64,000 bases of DNA, from the NCBI RefSeq assembly GCF_000531125.1, contig NZ_CBTK010000212.1, positions 1 through 64,000 of the forward strand, written 5' to 3'. Positions 4,251 through 46,158 of this stretch are shown here, piece by piece; position 1 is the first letter of the stretch, and every line of letters begins with the position of its first letter. Position numbers and translations under genes: made by a program. The notes below the pieces were generated by a model. The model was not told the origin of the DNA and did no database searches. It worked only from the letters and a program-made list of their open reading frames with translations. This stretch comes from Candidatus Contendobacter odensis Run_B_J11 (lineage in GTDB: Bacteria; Pseudomonadota; Gammaproteobacteria; Competibacterales; Competibacteraceae).

Positions 4251-5438
4251 GTGATCCAGCCGTTCTCCATCGCTCGTTTACCGCGTATCGAATTCGGTGC
4301 CGGCTCCATCAGCAAACTACCCAGCCTAATCGCTCAATACGGCAACCGGGTGTTGCTGGTGACCGGCCAACGCTCATTCCTCAATTCGCTGCACTGGCCG
4401 ACATTACTGGCAGCGTTGGAACAGGCTGAAATCGGTTGGGAACACACGCGGATTGACGATGAACCCTCGCCGCAACGGGTAGATGAAGCCGTCCGGCAAT
4501 TCCAGGGCAAGGATATTACGGCAGTCGTCGGCATCGGCGGTGGCAGTGTGCTGGACGCCGCTAAAGCGATTGCCGGTTTACTGCACATCGGCGATTCCGT
4601 CATGGATTATCTGGAAGGAGTCGGGCCGGAGAAACCGTATCACGGTCCCGCCGCACCGTTCATCGCGGTGCCGACCACTGCAGGCACCGGCAGCGAAGCC
4701 ACCAAAAATGCCGTACTCAGTGTGCGCGGTCCCGCCGGTTTCAAAAAATCCTTCCGCCATGATCTGCTGGTTCCGGAATACGCCCTGCTGGATCCCGACT
4801 TGCTGGCGAATTGTTCTCAGCCGCAGATCGCCGCCAACGCGATGGACGCGCTGACGCAATTGCTGGAATCCTATGTTTCGATCAAAGCCAATCCATTGAC
4901 TGACGCCTTGGCGGAAAGCGGGCTAAATGCAGTGCGGGAAGGTCTATTCGCCTGGTACGAGGGTAGCGAAGAAGCGGCTGCTGGTCGGTCGCACATGGCC
5001 TATGCAGCGCTGCTATCCGGTGTCTGTCTGGCGCAAACCGGGCTAGGCTCGGTGCATGGGCTGGCTTCGCCACTGGGAGCATTTTTCCCCATTCCGCATG
5101 GCGTGGTCTGCGGCACACTGGTCGGCGTCGCCACCCGCGTCAATCTCGCCGCACTGCGCGAACGCGATCCCGAAAATCCTGCATGGCGCAAATACGCCCG
5201 CGCCGCTGAAATTCTGCACCGGCAGCACTATGCTGATTTTGGTGAAGCTCATGCCGCGTTGCTGGGGTTGCTGGACGACTGGACTGAACAACTGGCTTTA
5301 CCTCGATTAAGCGCCTACGGGATTCAGGAGAGTGATTTCGCCCAGGTGGTCGCCCATTCGCGGGGCAGCAGCATGAAGACTAATCCGCTGGTGCTGCGTG
5401 ATGCTGAAATCGCGGCTGTACTCAAACAGCGGCTGTAA
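4251..5438 (+). CDS. Iron-containing (group III) alcohol dehydrogenase
   Basis: 395 residues, NAD(P)-dependent metal alcohol dehydrogenase of the DhaT/FucO superfamily. GGGSVLD (96-102) and PTTAGTGSE (141-149) form the dinucleotide site. Metal ligands are Asp199, His269 (SVHGLAS) and His283 (FPIPHG). The position four residues after Asp199, His in FucO-type enzymes, is Gln203 (MDALTQLLESY). A Gln here is known in a subgroup, so this is not necessarily inactivating, but the metal (Fe or Zn) and substrate cannot be told. The start is GTG at 4251. The next gene begins 31 bp after its stop and is probably co-transcribed. Confidence 0.86.
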   Translation: MIQPFSIARLPRIEFGAGSISKLPSLIAQYGNRVLLVTGQRSFLNSLHWPTLLAALEQAEIGWEHTRIDDEPSPQRVDEAVRQFQGKDITAVVGIGGGSVLDAAKAIAGLLHIGDSVMDYLEGVGPEKPYHGPAAPFIAVPTTAGTGSEATKNAVLSVRGPAGFKKSFRHDLLVPEYALLDPDLLANCSQPQIAANAMDALTQLLESYVSIKANPLTDALAESGLNAVREGLFAWYEGSEEAAAGRSHMAYAALLSGVCLAQTGLGSVHGLASPLGAFFPIPHGVVCGTLVGVATRVNLAALRERDPENPAWRKYARAAEILHRQHYADFGEAHAALLGLLDDWTEQLALPRLSAYGIQESDFAQVVAHSRGSSMKTNPLVLRDAEIAAVLKQRL

Positions 5439-5469
5439 ACCCACTGAATCACGGCCAGGAGAACCTGTT

Positions 5470-6504
5470 ATGAAAAAACCTCCCGCTCCTGATGATCGCC
5501 CTTCTTCCAGACCAGCAGGCACGCGGCCCTCTACCGGCGTAGTCGTGGACCGGGAAACCGTTGAACTCAAGCGGCTGGAAAAGCGGATTGGCCGGGTTCA
5601 CTTGCAGCAACGATTAGGCATTGAAGCCGACCACGCGACCCAAATCTTCGGACGCGGACGAACGGTCTTTCACATCGAAAACTGGTATTCGATCCATGCC
5701 CTGATTCGCCTGACCCTGCGTTGCCTGGGGCTGTACGGTTGGGGGGTGCGCAACGCAACCTCCATTCAGATCCGCCACAACGAAGTTGTTATCCCCCACT
5801 TGCCCGCCGCCTTCGACGGCCTGACTCTGCTCCACCTCAGCGACCTGCATCTCGATATGGCCGACGGCTACCCTGCCGCGCTGATCGAGCGCCTACAGCA
5901 GGTGCAGTACGACTTTTGCGTGATGACTGGCGATTTCCGGGCCAAGACTTTCGGTGACTACCAAGCCGCCCTCGCCGCCCTGGCCCAAGTGCGCGATGCT
6001 CTCCACGGTCCGATCTACGCGGTCCTGGGCAACCATGATTCCATCCGCATGACGCCGGGGATCGAGGCGTTAGGCATCACCCTGCTGCTCAACGAGGCGG
6101 TGGCTCTGGAACTCGACGGTGAGGTTATTCATCTGGCGGGTATTGATGATCCGCACTATTTTCAGGTGGATAATTTCGACAAAGCCGCGCAGCACATCCC
6201 GCCGGACTCGACCGCCATCCTGCTCTCGCATTCGCCGGAACCCTATCAGCGGGCCGCACACGCCGGTTTCGACCTGATGCTGAGCGGCCACACCCACGGT
6301 GGACAGATTTGCCTGCCAGGCGGGGTTGCCCTGATGACCAATGCGGATTGCCCACGCCGCTTCTGCAAGGGTGCTTGGCGCTACCATGCCATGCAGGGTT
6401 ATACCTCAGTGGGATCGGGCGCTTCGGTGGTTGGAGTCCGGTTCAATTGTCCGCCGGAAATCACCCTGCATCACCTGCGAAGCGGATCGACCCCGGATCA
6501 ATAA
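5470..6504 (+). CDS. YaeI-like metallophosphoesterase
   Basis: 344-residue calcineurin-like phosphoesterase with all five metal-site motifs: SDLHLD (124-129), TGDF (153-156), GNHD (187-190), SHSPE (253-257) and SGHTHGGQ (272-279). The closest characterised relatives (YaeI, YkuE) are membrane-associated phosphodiesterases. Here the 110-residue N-terminal region has no strong signal peptide but contains a hydrophobic stretch at 77-92. AGGAG (5457-5461) 8 bp before the ATG at 5470 fixes the start; a longer frame into the preceding gene is not needed. It converges on the CarS-like gene, the two stop regions overlapping by 7 bp. Substrate unknown. Confidence 0.84.
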   Translation: MKKPPAPDDRPSSRPAGTRPSTGVVVDRETVELKRLEKRIGRVHLQQRLGIEADHATQIFGRGRTVFHIENWYSIHALIRLTLRCLGLYGWGVRNATSIQIRHNEVVIPHLPAAFDGLTLLHLSDLHLDMADGYPAALIERLQQVQYDFCVMTGDFRAKTFGDYQAALAALAQVRDALHGPIYAVLGNHDSIRMTPGIEALGITLLLNEAVALELDGEVIHLAGIDDPHYFQVDNFDKAAQHIPPDSTAILLSHSPEPYQRAAHAGFDLMLSGHTHGGQICLPGGVALMTNADCPRRFCKGAWRYHAMQGYTSVGSGASVVGVRFNCPPEITLHHLRSGSTPDQ

Positions 6505-6983
6505 GGCCGGTTACGAATGCCGATCCAGTAGAAGATCGGTGACAACGCAAGTTCCAGCGCGATAAAGCCGACCACCGTCCCGCCAATAACCGGCCAGTTC
6601 AATGCAAACTCGCCTGCTATCGCCAGCAGCGGCAACAAGGCTTCGGGAATTTGATCCAGTCCCAGAGCCATCCCGCTGGTGGGTATACCTAACCGCCGTT
6701 TGATAAAGCTCGACAGCAGATCCCCGATCATGGCGGCGATGCCGATGATGCCTCCGATCCATGCCGGCACCTCCAACAGCACCGCCCCCACACCCGCTGC
6801 CAATGCAGCCGTGATCACTCCCCGCCAGGTCTTTGAATCTCCCAGCCAGCGCCGTCCATCCGCCAGCACCCGGCCTCCGTCAATTGGTTGCTTAGCCCAA
6901 GTGCCGCAGACTGCCGCCGCAAGCACCGGGGCGCCATTTGCGATCACAATCAGCAGCAGCAATTTGATTTCGATAGGTAACAT
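6498..6983 (-). CDS. CarS-like CDP-archaeol/CDP-alcohol synthase family protein
   Basis: 161-residue integral membrane protein of the CDP-archaeol synthase (DUF46, PF01864) family, related to CdsA. Motifs: PIDGG (33-37), GDSKTWRG (48-55), GDLLSSFIKRRLG (87-99) and LDQIPE (109-114), with about four to five hydrophobic segments. In archaea the enzyme activates unsaturated archaeol with CTP. Bacteria do not make archaeol, so the substrate here must be some other polar lipid. The ATG at 6983 is chosen over an upstream TTG because AAGGA stands about 10 bp before it. Monocistronic and convergent with the phosphoesterase. Confidence 0.75.
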   Translation of the reverse strand: MLPIEIKLLLLIVIANGAPVLAAAVCGTWAKQPIDGGRVLADGRRWLGDSKTWRGVITAALAAGVGAVLLEVPAWIGGIIGIAAMIGDLLSSFIKRRLGIPTSGMALGLDQIPEALLPLLAIAGEFALNWPVIGGTVVGFIALELALSPIFYWIGIRNRPY

Positions 6984-7128
6984 GTTGCAATCCGATCCTT
7001 CGAGAATCTTTACTACCAAGGTGACCGGTACATACCAGGCAAAAGCGACAGCCTCAGCCTACACTGATCCAACCGTTGCCCGCCCGTTTCTCTCAGCGAT
7101 CACGCTTCAAAAACCAAGGAGTTCCTCA

Positions 7129-7572
7129 ATGAAGATGCCCCTTATTAGCACCAGTCTCAGTGTTTTGTGCGGATTATTGTTATTGACCACGGCCCAAGCT
7201 GCTGATCCTCACTCGCCGGTTGGTCAATGGAAAACAATTGATGACAAATCGGGCAAGCCCAAGAGTATTGTGCAGATTACCGAGGATAACGGAATACTGA
7301 CCGGCAAGATTGTGGAATTGCTGGAAGGCGCTGCCGAAAAAACTTGCAGTAAATGCGAAGGCAATCTACAGGATAAACCATTAGTCGGGATGCGCATCCT
7401 GTGGGATTTGAAGAAAGACGGCGATGAATGGATCGACGGCAAAATCTTTAATCCAGCCGACGGCGGTACCTACACCAGCAAAGCCAAGCTGAGCAGCAAC
7501 GGCAAGACTCTGGAGGTCACCGGCAAGTGGATGTTCTTCAGCAAGCAACAGCAATGGCAACGAGTGAATTAA
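7129..7572 (+). CDS. DUF2147 secreted protein
   Basis: 147 residues. A signal peptide (MKMPLISTS... ending TTAQA, about residues 1-24) is followed by a single DUF2147 domain: SPVGQWKTID at the start, GKIVELLEG, a CSKCEG cysteine pair, LVGMRILWDLKKDGDEW, GKIFNPADGGTYTSKAKL and a C-terminal strand region. The family is an exported lipocalin-like beta barrel seen in many Proteobacteria, with no firm biochemical role. AAGGAG ends 9 bp before the ATG at 7129; the open frame extends further upstream but that part is not coding-like. The CxxC pair might bind metal or form a disulfide in the periplasm. Confidence 0.78.
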   Translation: MKMPLISTSLSVLCGLLLLTTAQAADPHSPVGQWKTIDDKSGKPKSIVQITEDNGILTGKIVELLEGAAEKTCSKCEGNLQDKPLVGMRILWDLKKDGDEWIDGKIFNPADGGTYTSKAKLSSNGKTLEVTGKWMFFSKQQQWQRVN

Positions 7573-7584
7573 GCATGTTGACGC

Positions 7585-7608
7585 CCCGCTCCCGCTGGTG
7601 GGGGCGGG
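7585..7608. terminator. Possible bidirectional terminator hairpin
   Basis: CCCGCTCCC (7585-7593) pairs with GGGGGCGGG (7600-7608), one mismatch, with a 6-base loop. It lies between the convergent DUF2147 gene and folD. There is no clear T-tract, so this is a weak call. Confidence 0.35.
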
Positions 7609-7622
7609 ATTGGTAGTGAGGG

Positions 7623-8525
7623 CTATTCTGCCGCCGGTTTGATCTCTGGAACCGGGATGCCGTGCTGCCGGCAAGCGGCAGTCAAGGTGTTGAGCAGCAG
7701 ACACGCTATCGTCATTGGCCCGACTCCACCGGGAACCGGAGTGATCGCGCCCGCCACCTCAACCGCCGAGGCAAATTCCACGTCGCCCACCAGCCGGCCT
7801 TTACCGTCCGGGGTCGGGAGGCGGTTGATTCCGACATCAATGACCGTCGCTCCCGGTTGCAGCCAGTCGCCCTTGACCATTTCCGGCCGCCCTACCGCCG
7901 CCACCACAATCTCCGCCCGCCGACATTCCGCCGCCAGATCGCGGGTACGGGAATGAGCCATCGTGACCGTGCAATGCTCGCGCAGCAGCAGCGCCGCCAT
8001 TGGCTTGCCGACGATATTGGAACGCCCTAACACCACGGCCCGTTTGCCCGCCAGATCGCCTAATTGATCCTTGAGCAACATCAGGCAACCCAGCGGGGTA
8101 CACGGCACCATCGCAGCCCCTCCCACCGCCAGCAGGCCGGCATTGAGCGGGTGAAAACCATCCACATCCTTGCTCACCGCAATCGCTTCGATCACCGCCT
8201 CTGGATTAATCTGCTTGGGCAGCGGCAGTTGCACCAGAATCCCGTTGACCGCCGGGTCCTGATTCAACCCGGCAATGCACGCCAATAACTCGGTCTGGCT
8301 CGCGGTCACCGGCAATCGCTGCTCGAAAGAGTTCATGCCCGTTTCCCGCGCCTGCCGACCCTTGTTGCGGACGTAAATCTGGCTGGCGGGATCTTCGCCC
8401 ACCAGCACCACCGCCAGACCGGGGGTGATACCGTGATCAGCTTTGAGTTGGGTAATCTGCGCGGTGATGCCGGTGCGCAACCGGGCAGCGAAACTTTTAC
8501 CGTCAATGATGGTGGCCGTGGCCAT
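7623..8525 (-). CDS. folD: Bifunctional methylene-THF dehydrogenase/cyclohydrolase FolD
   Basis: 300 residues, the normal FolD length. It interconverts 5,10-methylene-, methenyl- and 10-formyl-tetrahydrofolate with NADP, in the cytosol. Motifs: [14 protein letters not shown] with catalytic Tyr51/Lys55, [10 protein letters not shown] (95-104), KDVDGFHP with Asp122, and the NADP site GRSNIVGKP (167-175); C-terminal [11 protein letters not shown] is intact. The ATG at 8525 has GAGG 8 bp upstream; the open frame continues 21 codons further but without support. Stands alone, divergent from the acyltransferase gene. Confidence 0.95.
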
Positions 8526-8700
8526 GAGATTCCTCGTGATAGACACTTTACTTCGAGTGGCAGGGTGAATTAATTGGGTAAATATCACAAAAAAACAGCG
8601 AGCGCGATTGCCCGGCGTTGCCTCTCACCTTGTCTTGTCTGTAACTTGCCCGTAATCTTTGCGTGCTTTCCCAACTACACCCAACAGGAGTGCGCAGGCC

Positions 8701-9684
8701 GTGTCAAGTCAGGACCAGCAGATCGTGTTCGTATTTCCGGGACAGGGTTCCCAGTACGTCGGAATGGGCAGTGACCTGCTCCGCGATTTTCCAGTCGCCC
8801 AGCGGCGCTACGAACAGGCCAATGACATCGTGGGTTACGACCTTGCCAAGCTCTGCCTGGAAGGGCCGGAAGAAGACCTCAAGCTCACCCGTCACACCCA
8901 GCCCGCCCTGCTCACCCACTCGCTGGTCTGCCTGGACATTTTCCGCGAACTGACCGAGGGTCAAGTGCAACCGGCGCTAACGGCGGGTCACAGTCTCGGC
9001 GAATACTGCGCCCTGGTCGCGGCGGGCGCGCTGGATTTCGAGACTGCCCTGCGGCTGGTGCAAAAGCGCGGTGAGTGCATGGGAACTTACGGTGACGGTG
9101 AAATGCTGGCTTTCCCGCTGCACCTTGACAACATTCAGTCCTTGGCCGAGAAGCACTATTGCGCCATTGCGGCCTCCAACCTGCCCGATCAGACCGTGGT
9201 CGGCGGACGCGGCGAAGATCTCGACCGGTTGACCGAGGACGCGCTGGCTCACTTTCCCCGCAAAAAGCCGACCCGACTCAAGACCGAAGGCGCCTTCCAC
9301 ACATTCTATATGATTACCGCTGCTCTGCACTTCCGTCCGGTACTGGACGCTGCGGAGATGCATGCACCCACCCTCCGCGTCCTCTCCAACTACAGCGGAA
9401 CCCACCACGATCCCGATCCGGCCACCATCAAAACCCGGTTGTTCTATCAACTGTTCCACCCCGTCAACTGGATCGGTAACCTGGAAACCGCCTTTCGCGA
9501 CGGTGTGACCACCATGGTCGAATTTGGCGGTGGGCTGGGCAGCGGCGCGAATCCCGAGGATAAGCGCCCCAATCTGGAAAGCATGGTCAAGAAAGCGCTG
9601 CGCGGCTCGGATTACAGCGTCCACTACCACGCCGCCATCAATAGCCAAACCTTGCGTCAAACCGCAGCAGCATTACAACCATGA
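8701..9684 (+). CDS. Stand-alone malonyl/acyl-CoA:ACP transferase (FabD-like)
   Basis: 327 residues with an acyltransferase fold. FPGQGSQ (12-18), nucleophile Ser98 in GHSLGE (96-101), Arg123 in LVQKRGECM and His200 in EGAFH form the expected active site. It transfers malonyl (or another acyl) groups from CoA to ACP. The start is GTG at 8701 with AGGAG about 10 bp upstream. It is not in a fab cluster: folD is divergent upstream, and downstream come a doubtful small frame and an IS remnant. The sequence after the active site (FHTFYM, Ala-rich end) differs from housekeeping FabD, so it may serve a polyketide- or specialised lipid-type system elsewhere. Such ATs can also have other acyl specificities. 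Confidence 0.82.
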   Translation: MSSQDQQIVFVFPGQGSQYVGMGSDLLRDFPVAQRRYEQANDIVGYDLAKLCLEGPEEDLKLTRHTQPALLTHSLVCLDIFRELTEGQVQPALTAGHSLGEYCALVAAGALDFETALRLVQKRGECMGTYGDGEMLAFPLHLDNIQSLAEKHYCAIAASNLPDQTVVGGRGEDLDRLTEDALAHFPRKKPTRLKTEGAFHTFYMITAALHFRPVLDAAEMHAPTLRVLSNYSGTHHDPDPATIKTRLFYQLFHPVNWIGNLETAFRDGVTTMVEFGGGLGSGANPEDKRPNLESMVKKALRGSDYSVHYHAAINSQTLRQTAAALQP

Positions 9685-26924: not shown

Positions 26925-31706
<4,782 letters not shown>

Positions 31707-42441: not shown

Positions 42442-43449
42442 ATGGAAATCACTCTCACCGGCATTACTACCACTGGCGCTCCACATTTAGGGAATTACGT
42501 CGGCGCAATTCTGCCCGCTATCGAAGCCAGTCGCCGGCAGGACGTGCAATCCTTCTATTTTCTGGCCGATTACCACGCCTTGGTCAAATGCCAGGATCCC
42601 GCCCTGGTTCACCGCTCACGGCTGGAAGTCGCCGCGACCTGGCTGGCGCTGGGGCTGGAGGTGGATAACGTCATTTTCTACGCCCAAACCGACATTCCCG
42701 AAATTCTGGAATTGACCTGGATATTGACCTGCGTCACCGCCAAGGGCTTGATGAATCGTGCCCATGCTTACAAAGCAGCGGTCGCCGAAAATCTGGCCGA
42801 TCCCGACAAGGATCCCGACAAGGCGGTCACAATGGGGTTATTCAGCTATCCGATTTTGATGGCGGCGGACATTCTGATGTTCAAGGCCAGCAAAGTGCCG
42901 GTGGGGAAGGATCAGACTCAGCATCTGGAAATGGCTCGCGACATCGCCGCCCGGTTTAATTACCTGTACGGCGAGCATTTTGTGCTGCCCGAAGCGGTGG
43001 TGGATGAAAAAGCGTCGGTGCTGGTCGGACTCGACGGGCGCAAGATGAGCAAGAGCTACGGCAACACCATCCCGCTGTTCGAGCCGGAAAAGGCGCTGCG
43101 CAAGCTGATTATGCGGATTAAGACCAACTCGCTGCCGCCGGAAGCGCCCAAGGATCCCGATACCTGCACCCTGTTCCAGATTTACCAGGCGTTTGCCACG
43201 GCTGATGAAAGCGCGGCGATCCGCCAACGCTATGCCCAAGGCATCGGTTGGGGCGAGATGAAACAAGTGTTGTTTGAATATCTGAATGCCCGCTTGACTG
43301 AACCGCGTCAACGCTATCAGGAATTGCTGGAAAAGCCTGATCACATTGAGCAGATTCTCAAACACGGCGCGGCGCGGGCGCGGGAGTACAGCGTACCGTT
43401 CCTGCACCAGTTGCGGCGAGCGGTGGGGATTCGACCGTTGGGCGGGTAA
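42442..43449 (+). CDS. trpS: Tryptophanyl-tRNA synthetase
   Basis: 335 residues, class I synthetase charging tRNA-Trp. The HIGH-type motif is PHLGNYVG (14-21) and the KMSKS motif is intact (GRKMSKSYGN); VGKDQTQHLEMARDIAARFN and the C-terminal helical region are typical. The length is normal. No second trpS is seen in the window. The normal neighbour downstream would be scpA, but the AIPR gene intervenes. Confidence 0.95.
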   Translation: MEITLTGITTTGAPHLGNYVGAILPAIEASRRQDVQSFYFLADYHALVKCQDPALVHRSRLEVAATWLALGLEVDNVIFYAQTDIPEILELTWILTCVTAKGLMNRAHAYKAAVAENLADPDKDPDKAVTMGLFSYPILMAADILMFKASKVPVGKDQTQHLEMARDIAARFNYLYGEHFVLPEAVVDEKASVLVGLDGRKMSKSYGNTIPLFEPEKALRKLIMRIKTNSLPPEAPKDPDTCTLFQIYQAFATADESAAIRQRYAQGIGWGEMKQVLFEYLNARLTEPRQRYQELLEKPDHIEQILKHGAARAREYSVPFLHQLRRAVGIRPLGG

Positions 43450-43559
43450 GGTGGATTGATTAAATCATCCAGCCGATACATAACGGTTGCACCAGATTCG
43501 CGTTCCGGCGGTAGGTACGTTGGTTATCCACCATATGAATTTTCTCAAAGGAAGTGCCA

Positions 43560-45320
43560 ATGTACGAATTAATAAAGAAGCAAATTTCGGCTGATTATTT
43601 CCAGCAAAAATTTTCAAACGACGGGCAGCGATTTGTCGCTTGGTATCTTCGCAATGTTCTGTTTCGCGACATGAATGAAACGCGGGATGACATTACTGAT
43701 GGTGCTGACGATAAGCAAATTGATGCCATAATTATTGACGGTGACAAATCTCTGGTTCACATCATACAAGGCAAATTCATTCAATGCGGTGCTATCGATG
43801 CTGAGCCCCTACGCGAAGTTCTATCATCTTGGATGCAAATTAAAAACCTTGCTCGGCTACAGAATGTTGCAAACGCAAAGCTGCAAAGAAAACTCTCAGA
43901 ACTGGCAACGGCGCTCGAAGAGGATTACGAAGTATCATTTGAACTGATAACTACTGGAGTATTGACCGATTCTGCCAAAAATGATCTTGAAACATTTCAG
44001 AAAGAGTTAGCTCGAATTAGTGAAAACGAAGACTTTGATGCAACGATACACGTAATTGAAAACGACGAAATCAAACGTCGCTACGAATACGCAATTGAAT
44101 CGGATAACCCTAGTATTAACTACAAACTTAATCTTGGTGGTAGTAAGTTTATGTACCATGAAATTGCAGGAACGCCTGTTATTATTGCTGCCCTTCCTCT
44201 GAAAGAATGTGTCAAACTACCCGGCATTAAGGATGGCACTCTTTTCCAGAAAAACGTCCGAAAAAGTCTAGGTTCGAGTAACGCAGTAAATAAAGGGATT
44301 CGAAATACCATTATTGGGGATAAACGGTCAGATTTTTTCTTCTTTCATAATGGGTTAACGATCTTGTGCAACAAGATGGAAATGGACGGTGAAATACTTT
44401 CACTGTATGGCCTGAGCGTAGTTAATGGTTGTCAATCTCTTAATACAATTCTTTCGTGTAGCGAAACAGTTAAGAAGGCTGATGATGCCTTTATTCTTTT
44501 CCGATTTTATGAAATACCACAGCGGGATCGTGCAGACAAAATCTCAATTTGCACCAACTCTCAAAGCGCCGTAAAAGCCCGTGACCTGAGAAGTAATGAT
44601 AAGCGTGTACTAGCAATAAAAAGATCTTACGAGCTTAAATATCCAAGCGGATACTTTATTACTAAGCGAGGAGAAATAGCGCCAGCAGACAAAAATAAAG
44701 ATCATGTCGTTGAACTATCTGGTTTAGCTAAGAATCTTGTCGCATGGCACTCACAGAGACCAAATCTTTCTTACGGTGAAACTAAGATTTTTGATAAGTA
44801 TTTTGAAACGCTTTTTAAAAACAAAGATTATCCGCCTGAAAACATTTTTGCTCTTAATGCATGGATGAATCAGGTTCTAAAAACGTGGATTCCTGAAAAT
44901 CCGCTAAACCTGAATGAAACACTTCTAGCTATGAGGGCTTATGCGCCCTATCACCATTTGTATGCTATAGGCATGTGTTTCTCCATCACAAACAATCATT
45001 CTGAACGTGTTCCTAATCCTTCCAAGGCTTATGAGGCTGCATCTAAGCTTGGAATGGTTGATGAAATAGTAAAAGTAGCTGGTATCAGCCTCAACATGGC
45101 ACTAGAGGCCGCAGCAAATGAGCTACAACCCGCCAATAGGGTTTTCAGTCCGCAGAACTGGGTAAAGACAAAAAGTTGTCTTGCTGGCATAAACGGAGCT
45201 ATACGTAACTACTTTAATATGCTTCCAATGATGCCAGGAGGCGCGGAAATAAGAAAAAAGCTGAACGAAGCAACTACTTTAAAAAGCGAAGATTTTGAAT
45301 ACCGCTGGTCCGCTGACTAA
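43560..45320 (+). CDS. AIPR-family abortive phage-resistance protein
   Basis: 586 residues of the AIPR (abortive infection phage resistance, PF10592) family. The N-terminal 150 residues show a probable nuclease fold: QIDAIIIDGD with Asp55, then VHIIQGKF with Gln70 and Lys72, a D-(x14)-QxK variant of PD-(D/E)XK. The central part contains the family hallmark region FFFFHNGLTILCNKM, LYGLSVVNGCQSLNTI, NSQSAVKARDLRSNDKRVLAIKRSYE. The ATG at 43560 has AAGGA about 10 bp upstream, better placed than the GTG at 43554. It is markedly AT-richer than its neighbours and separates trpS from scpA: an acquired single-gene defence module. No methylase or partner gene adjacent. Mechanism in this organism is unproven. 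Confidence 0.85.
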   Translation: MYELIKKQISADYFQQKFSNDGQRFVAWYLRNVLFRDMNETRDDITDGADDKQIDAIIIDGDKSLVHIIQGKFIQCGAIDAEPLREVLSSWMQIKNLARLQNVANAKLQRKLSELATALEEDYEVSFELITTGVLTDSAKNDLETFQKELARISENEDFDATIHVIENDEIKRRYEYAIESDNPSINYKLNLGGSKFMYHEIAGTPVIIAALPLKECVKLPGIKDGTLFQKNVRKSLGSSNAVNKGIRNTIIGDKRSDFFFFHNGLTILCNKMEMDGEILSLYGLSVVNGCQSLNTILSCSETVKKADDAFILFRFYEIPQRDRADKISICTNSQSAVKARDLRSNDKRVLAIKRSYELKYPSGYFITKRGEIAPADKNKDHVVELSGLAKNLVAWHSQRPNLSYGETKIFDKYFETLFKNKDYPPENIFALNAWMNQVLKTWIPENPLNLNETLLAMRAYAPYHHLYAIGMCFSITNNHSERVPNPSKAYEAASKLGMVDEIVKVAGISLNMALEAAANELQPANRVFSPQNWVKTKSCLAGINGAIRNYFNMLPMMPGGAEIRKKLNEATTLKSEDFEYRWSAD

Positions 45321-45366
45321 AAGGTTAGCATTGGTTGAGCGATCCGTTATAGCGGTGTACTAATTT

Positions 45367-46158
45367 ATGATGGACGCCGCCACCGACATTCCACCGTTCG
45401 CCAAGGTCGGCGGCGAACCTTATACCCAGTTCCCGCAAGACCTTTACATCCCGCCGGATGCGCTGGAAGTGTTTCTGGAAGCCTTCGAGGGCCCGCTGGA
45501 TTTACTGCTATATCTAATCAAGCGTCAAAATCTGAACATCCTCGACATTCCTATTGCTGCTATCACCCGGCAATACATGGAGTATCTGGCGTTGATGCAG
45601 GAAATGCGGCTGGAACTGGCGGCGGAATATCTGGTGATGGCGGCCTGGCTGGCGGAAATCAAATCGCGGCTACTGCTGCCGCGACCGGTCTCCGCCGAAA
45701 CTGAGGAAGACGACCCACGCGCTGATCTGATTCGTCGGCTTCAGGAATACGAGCGGTTCCAGCAAGCGGCGCAGGCACTGGATGCACTGCCGCGACTGGA
45801 GCGTGACCTGTTCGTTGCCCACGCGGAACCGGCTCATCGGGAAACGCTCCGAACCCCGCCGCCGGTCAGTCTGGCCGATCTGCTCAGCGCCTTGCGGGAG
45901 GTGATGAACCGTGCCGAGATGTTTGGACACCACCACATTCACCGCGAAGCGCTGTCGGTGCGGGAACGGATGAGCCAGGTACTGGAACAGTTGGACGCAC
46001 TGCGCTTTACCGCTTTCACCGCGCTATTTCGCCCGGAGGAAGGACGGGCAGGTTTAGTAGTGACGTTTCTGGCGGTGCTGGAGTTGTTACGCGAAGCGTT
46101 GCTGGAACTGGTGCAGACTGAGCCGTTCGCGCCCATTCATGTCCGCCGCCGGATTTGA
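45367..46158 (+). CDS. scpA: Condensin subunit ScpA (kleisin)
   Basis: 263 residues. N-terminal SMC-neck-binding part FEGPLDLLLYLIKRQNLNILDIPIAAITRQYMEYL, EYLVMAAWLAEIKSRLLLP, then an acidic linker and C-terminal winged helix (FTALFRPEEGRAGLVVTFLAVLELLREALLELVQTEPFAPI). It bridges the SMC heads. ATGs at 45367 and 45370; no clear ribosome site, perhaps because the AIPR insertion replaced the native leader. scpB follows after 9 bp. Confidence 0.93.
   Translation: MMDAATDIPPFAKVGGEPYTQFPQDLYIPPDALEVFLEAFEGPLDLLLYLIKRQNLNILDIPIAAITRQYMEYLALMQEMRLELAAEYLVMAAWLAEIKSRLLLPRPVSAETEEDDPRADLIRRLQEYERFQQAAQALDALPRLERDLFVAHAEPAHRETLRTPPPVSLADLLSALREVMNRAEMFGHHHIHREALSVRERMSQVLEQLDALRFTAFTALFRPEEGRAGLVVTFLAVLELLREALLELVQTEPFAPIHVRRRI

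Follow-up and report, generated by a model that had tools for sequence, protein, structure and literature searches.

Annotation tools count AIPR/AbiU as a defence family, and the sole printed domain assignment that we found is that of Makarova 2012, where the accessible part describes HEPN at the N-terminus of AIPR and relates the family to DndB and to restriction-modification (R-M) systems. According to the available portion of PMC3985639, AbiU of L. lactis is a two-gene system comprising abiU1 and abiU2. SspE, BrxU and GmrSD join a DUF262 ParB/sulfiredoxin (Srx) NTPase to a C-terminal DUF1524 HNH nuclease in a single polypeptide. For SspE, the accessible text of PMC9646914 and of the review PMC10952713 describes an NTPase activity that is stimulated by marked DNA, followed by a conformational change that renders the nicking domain active. 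In the part of Machnicka 2015 available to us (PMC4619093), DGQQR, the GmrS motif, is aligned with GGCHR, the signature of Srx.

The window, the whole 64,000-nucleotide stretch of Candidatus Contendobacter odensis Run_B_J11 DNA analysed here, carries between trpS and scpA one intact AIPR-family ORF of 586 codons plus stop (43560..45320, + strand, ATG at 43560; an alternative GTG start at 43554 lies two codons upstream). Pfam/NCBIfam matches place trpS at 42442..43449 and scpA at 45367..46158, both on the + strand, leaving spacers of 110 bp from the trpS stop to the AIPR ATG (43450..43559, +) and of 46 bp from the AIPR stop to the scpA start (45321..45366, +). The protein matches Pfam AIPR (PF10592) at 118.6 bits, against a cut-off of 25 (5.7e-34; residues 231-494, counted from the GTG), and the PADLOC AbiU profile at 7.2e-34 over residues 103-475. 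This is the sole AIPR gene found in its own 4.6-Mb genome (319 contigs). No promoter-like site was found in the 110-bp upstream spacer; a promoter scan of the region gave 3 predictions against 4.1 expected by chance, none of them upstream of the AIPR gene, and the 64-kb window has no Rfam match.

The core domain is shared with AIPR, far above the Pfam cut-off, and with PADLOC AbiU, whereas the window protein, of about 586 aa, falls in a separate tight clade with a predicted Mrr-type N-terminus of its own. Unlike the L. lactis system, the locus has one gene: abiU2 is absent, and the neighbours are trpS and scpA. MzaE of the MZA anti-phage system is also of the AIPR family and gives a weak match (2e-8 over residues 230-353), but at 33.2 bits against an NCBIfam cut-off of 1050, and no Mza genes adjoin. 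DndB, which the accessible part of Makarova 2012 places in one family with AIPR, would share the ParB superfamily; the window protein differs in carrying a predicted nuclease domain and having no DndB Pfam match, and neither dnd genes nor another target operon lie beside its gene in the window.

With TrpS and ScpA located by their matches across the family genomes, and with fetched stretches, 27 intervals between trpS and scpA were measured. The two genes lie -4 to 54 bp apart in 18 of these, as expected from the sequence-only reading that they are usually adjacent, while nine intervals exceed 300 bp and hold inserts of 0.35-7.7 kb. Three more genomes with both genes on one contig (G016, G048, G051) also have short intervals, as read from coordinates, which brings the count to 9/30; in the remaining 9 of the 39 family genomes, trpS and scpA are on different contigs or one is missing. 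As a control, the same genomes were measured at four neighbouring intervals, where a single one of 68 was longer than 300 bp (323 bp, in G010). Within the genus, seven of eight genomes carry a cassette at this position (six measured and G007, whose contig holds, from scpA upstream to its end, a methyltransferase gene and one further gene), and G002 is empty. On this genome comparison, which the sequence-only reading had proposed as a check, trpS-scpA is a locus-specific swap site and a defence hotspot. The swap site is newly seen here, with control intervals, whereas AIPR is a family already known; it offers a small, well-bordered interval in which the mutual replacement of defence genes can be traced across the genus.

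The cassettes differ between genomes. G006 carries a REase_II (6.4e-35) with an MTase_II (2.5e-96), while the MTase_II of G003 and G004 is paired with another kind of REase_II (1.6e-115 and 1.2e-117). The same pair is found in G005 and G007 by sequence alone, their methyltransferases being 74-85% identical to the others, and G022 has the same methyltransferase with a short second ORF. G001 holds a YoeB toxin (2.4e-40) with a small gene upstream, G024 a 93-aa fragment with weak similarity to a PD-(D/E)XK transposase, and G013 an unclassified 7.7-kb insert with four long ORFs (L068:370-8060). The main ORFs of all cassettes except that of G013 are co-oriented with trpS and scpA. Among eight other cassettes, GC content ranges over 0.42-0.55. 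Inspected by eye, the cassette borders showed neither repeats nor a recombinase nor a common scar. It is conceivable that the group had the second kind of R-M pair ancestrally and that the lineage of the window had it replaced. A search of the AIPR gene and its spacers for remnants of the sister R-M cassettes gave only an 11-base match (E 0.25).

In G005 and G022 (L050/L054) the second ORF of the R-M pair, that of the REase, looks shortened, at 157 and 122 aa against 267-283 aa, and the methyltransferase is full length. Cassettes therefore decay, and in decaying R-M cassettes restriction seems to have been lost first. In G021 (L078:1-1364), trpS runs directly into scpB sequence, and a ScpA match is absent from the genome.

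The AIPR gene has a GC content of 0.40, against 0.53-0.64 in 12 neighbouring genes, which agrees with its earlier description as AT-rich and unlike its flanks. In 500-base windows, GC is 0.38-0.42 inside the gene and 0.52-0.66 across the surrounding 13 kb, border windows excluded. GC3 is 0.353 against 0.634-0.757 in the 12 neighbours, and codon adaptiveness to these neighbours is 0.475 against 0.599-0.744 for the neighbours themselves. Far from being present at this locus in all relatives with matching codon use, the gene has no close copy in any of the 58 other genomes searched; 11 of them give any AIPR match, the best at 31% identity, and a profile search of the 39 family genomes returned one close member, that of the window.

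Close relatives are found elsewhere. They form a tight clade of at least 80 genome loci in the database, spread from Thermoplasmata to Bacteroidota and Bacillus. Among the matches listed, those from Aromatoleum, a Rhodospirillales MAG and Candidatus Nitrotoga are near full length and 82-83% identical over the best segment (82% for the Aromatoleum protein), followed by Mesorhizobium (78%), Sphingomonas (76%) and Bacillus (67%), and by a DPANN MAG (68%) and Thermoplasmata MAGs (40%). For any of the MAGs, the taxon given may be mistaken for an individual contig. For comparison, LigA from genomes holding relatives is 58-62% identical to the window LigA in two Aromatoleum, 49% in Mesorhizobium, 51% in Sphingomonas and 46% in Bacillus. 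Because of its composition, the lack of a close copy in 58 genomes and an AIPR identity above that of LigA, we regard the gene as horizontally acquired and foreign to the host lineage, an acquired single gene as the sequence-only reading had it.

All 59 clade members scanned with Pfam match AIPR, and at 60 of 72 clade loci the gene is AT-richer than its own flanks. When the ORFs called around 72 loci were clustered (minimum length 70 aa), no constant partner gene emerged, and no cluster occurred at more than 5 loci. The immediate neighbour ORFs were scanned as a batch (110 of 111, one of L164 being left out): type I MTase models matched 3-4 and ResIII 7, the rest were scattered, and no constant methyltransferase was present among the 110 ORFs, with the 25 commonest families viewed. 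Plasmid and phage records contain distant relatives (119 and 17, respectively), all below 60% identity, and none covers 80% of the query.

In two rumen Bacteroidales loci (L139 and L160, ~4463-9147), the AIPR gene lies between HsdM-like and HsdS-like genes with gaps of 16-18 bp, so a gene that is solitary elsewhere can become part of a type I R-M operon. The earlier remark that the gene has no methylase neighbour is correct for the window, yet sister genomes hold R-M pairs at the same site and some clade members sit inside type I R-M operons. For the window gene itself, membership in a type I or II R-M system was rejected since no partner methyltransferase lies beside it. On one IMG/VR contig (L047:5001-6734), a 57% relative stands alone between opposite-strand phage head-tail genes, by eye, and resembles a phage cargo gene. 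On another (L046:3316-6413), an ORF that reads by eye as serine-recombinase-like precedes a 78% relative, and a second, broken copy of that ORF seems to come after it, an arrangement that is possibly a mobile unit.

Conservation was counted over 73 full-length clade members, 10 of 82 loci having been dropped as partial or broken, and reaches at least 97% at 108 positions. D55, Q70 and K72 are identical in all 73, as are G22, D47, D51, K52, G71 and E86. The first three form the motif D55-x14-Q70-G71-K72 (43722..43775, + strand, numbered from the ATG at 43560), followed by E86 (43815-43817, +). A full-length AlphaFold2 model was built from an alignment of 59 of the 73 clade sequences (mean pLDDT 83.8, pTM 0.49; residues 232-238 and 334-338 below pLDDT 50). 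In the model, strand 56-60 begins just after D55, strand 65-72 contains both Q70 and K72, and helix 81-95 contains E86.

Residues 1-183 of the model (43560..44108, +) were compared with known structures using VIA-align. The best matches were FokI (Z 10.0, rmsd 3.2, 140 residues aligned), AF1548 (Z 9.4, rmsd 3.2, 113 aligned), MspJI (Z 9.3, rmsd 3.4, 126 aligned), N.BspD6I (Z 8.5, rmsd 4.2, 147 aligned) and AspBHI (Z 8.2, rmsd 4.0, 128 aligned), with EndoMS, Cdn1, HamA and Card1 lower at Z 5.9-7.2 and RNA polymerase subunit Rpb5 chains further down at 4.6-5.9. The motif of MspJI and AspBHI is of the D..QxK type, as in the window protein. The likeness to MspJI, AspBHI and FokI extends to the nuclease fold (Z 8.2-10.0, predicted model), but the window protein has no recognised DNA-reader domain and its predicted nuclease is coupled to a ParB/Srx-like domain instead.

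At the sequence level, 27 of the 59 members scanned have a Pfam Mrr_cat match (best 6.6e-5); the match falls within residues 43-93 in six of ten members scanned singly, and exceeds the Pfam cut-off in one (L155; 23.4 against 21 bits, residues 43-91), while the window protein gives no Mrr_cat match at E up to 1. Searches of PDB sequences with the window protein and with the profile returned nothing at E 0.1 or better, and Foldseek against PDB with the full and central-domain models gave no match at E <= 0.001; against BFVD it gave three, the best being an annotated AIPR protein. A G[VI]D..QxK signature is present in 6 of 13 distant AIPRs of the family genomes and absent from the other 7. By most of the tests run, the N-terminus is predicted to be a nuclease, with residues 1-183 adopting a restriction-endonuclease fold that carries a PD-(D/E)XK-type site (Mrr-type). 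The sequence-only reading, which had taken D55, Q70 and K72 for such a variant and suggested a comparison with Mrr-like nucleases, gains from both the invariance of the motif and the predicted fold. A HEPN N-terminus was rejected for the clade, the model being alpha/beta rather than all-helical; no R-x4-6-H motif was seen by eye in residues 1-183, and there was no Pfam HEPN match. The printed HEPN assignment does not fit this clade as modelled.

The VVNGCQS hallmark (44418..44438, +) is complete, as the sequence-only reading had it, and V288, N289, G290, C291, Q292 and S293 are at least 97% conserved over 73 sequences and invariant in the alignment of 59. It lies in a predicted ParB/Srx-like domain (residues ~200-336, 44157..44567, +), which extends into the beginning of the AIPR core as defined by Pfam. 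Against ParB-N structures, residues 198-336 of the full model gave Z 6.1 for PadC, 5.8 for pNOB8 ParB and 5.6 for M. xanthus ParB-CDP. The central part was also modelled alone (residues 184-478, mean pLDDT 86.7, pTM 0.57) and matched 11 entries at Z >= 2, of which the first nine, at Z 6.0 down to 3.1, are all ParB/Srx proteins: PadC, two pNOB8 ParB entries, human Srx-ADP, Noc, Caulobacter ParB, KorB, SspE and BrxU. The comparison tool calls Z 3-6, where these matches lie, a common range, and the SspE and BrxU alignments have an rmsd of 15-17, so only part of them can be meaningful. The Z values are weak by themselves, and it is because the list consists of a single superfamily that we read the AIPR core as resembling a ParB/Srx domain in the model. 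The remaining residues 337-586 (44568..45317, +) are mostly helical and end in a conserved FEYR(W)xAD.

The joining of a ParB/Srx-like domain and a nuclease in one polypeptide is what the window protein would share with SspE, BrxU and GmrSD. It differs in that its predicted nuclease is N-terminal and of the PD-(D/E)XK type; Pfam matches to DUF262 or DUF1524 are absent from the window protein and from the 25 families shown for 59 members. Where GmrSD-type proteins have a DGQQR-like motif, the window protein reads NGCQS: compared by eye with DGQQR and GGCHR, the G and Q are kept and the terminal R is replaced by S, so nucleotide hydrolysis may be lost.

Taking together the gene, its foreign composition, the swap site, the clade and the invariant motif, all seen in the sequence, and two predicted folds, we favour a solitary mobile defence gene in a swap site that encodes a ParB/Srx-gated Mrr-type nuclease, with a probability of roughly 0.55. 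Within one polypeptide, D55, Q70, K72 and probably E86 would form the metal site of an N-terminal Mrr-type PD-(D/E)XK nuclease, and the central ParB/Srx-like domain would bind, and perhaps hydrolyse, a nucleotide. Most likely, this domain would sense a mark of invading nucleic acid and activate the nuclease through nucleotide turnover, much as in SspE, BrxU and GmrSD. Since a ParB/Srx domain and a nuclease in one chain are the plan of those proteins, a nucleotide-gated nuclease directed against invading DNA is favoured; we infer the nucleotide gating, DNA as the main target and the anti-phage function. A lone nuclease gene that persists across many phyla, accompanied by neither a methylase nor an antitoxin, must presumably be silent until triggered. 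The ParB/Srx-like core, which the sequence-only reading had missed while being right about an acquired, single gene with a nuclease-type N-terminus in a hotspot, shifts the likely mechanism from a lone toxin to a gated nuclease. More tentatively, and at somewhat less than even odds, AIPRs at large may form a class of their own, restriction factors made of one protein whose Mrr-type nuclease is driven by a ParB/Srx nucleotide switch; the 586-aa clade would be their clearest example, and they would be a PD-(D/E)XK counterpart of GmrSD, BrxU and SspE, with HEPN wrong for this branch. If so, a single gene in need of neither methylase nor antitoxin could move intact between Bacteria and Archaea and enter small swap sites like trpS-scpA. 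No prior description of AIPR as a nuclease plus ParB/Srx protein was found in the accessible portions of open-access full texts. The two-domain model names its residues and is specific enough to be tested cheaply with one gene in E. coli.

A modification-dependent (type IV) restriction enzyme acting on modified phage DNA overlaps with this gated nuclease and is counted apart only for its modified-base trigger, which we consider unlikely, if well worth weighing. The AIPR gene is solitary and without a methylase, MspJI, which is modification-dependent, and AspBHI, whose structure entry is titled modification-dependent, are among the best folds, and SspE and BrxU are among the matches of the ParB-like half; yet Pfam found no reader domain (SRA, EVE or other) in the window protein, and sequence cannot reveal specificity. 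Abortive action on host nucleic acid is a serious rival, although we judge it slightly less likely again. The nuclease would cut host RNA or DNA on infection, and the cell would be killed or stalled, as with other Abi proteins. The fold matches include Card1 (Z 5.9) and Can2 (Z 5.0), effectors of the PD-(D/E)XK type whose targets extend to host nucleic acid, and the sequence matches include the AbiU profile. AIPR figures as a suicide component in the accessible part of Makarova 2012, and a figure legend in the 2023 review PMC9952470 says that AbiU interferes with RNA transcription. The printed basis for this is HEPN, however, whereas the N-terminus models as an alpha/beta restriction endonuclease, and the best fold matches are mostly DNA restriction enzymes.

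That the gene is a passive passenger, mobile in a permissive intergenic site and of no benefit to the host, appears improbable: the ORF is intact, 108 positions are highly conserved across the clade and the cassette types are mostly R-M and toxin-antitoxin, against which stand the lack of a recurring partner, the many unrelated cassettes at one site and the cassette decay in G005 and G022. Less probable still is a DndB-like regulator or housekeeping accessory with no effector. Besides the grouping of DndB with AIPR, this draws on the accessible part of PMC10853773, which reports DndB as an ATP-modulated negative regulator, but the window gene has no dnd or target operon alongside, its nuclease motif is invariant and its clade has no common neighbour gene. 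An assembly or binning artefact would fit the composition breaks at both borders of the AIPR gene; it is very improbable, given that, on a contig of 65,226 bases, the insert is bordered precisely by trpS and scpA and that other cassettes occupy the same place in sister genomes.

Elsewhere in the window, a perfect TGCCGT repeat of 7.7 copies (28795-28840) lies in an ORF of 1593 aa in which Hpt-like and CheA/receiver-like parts recur, as judged by eye; the repeat encodes a Leu-Pro run, whose length could vary.
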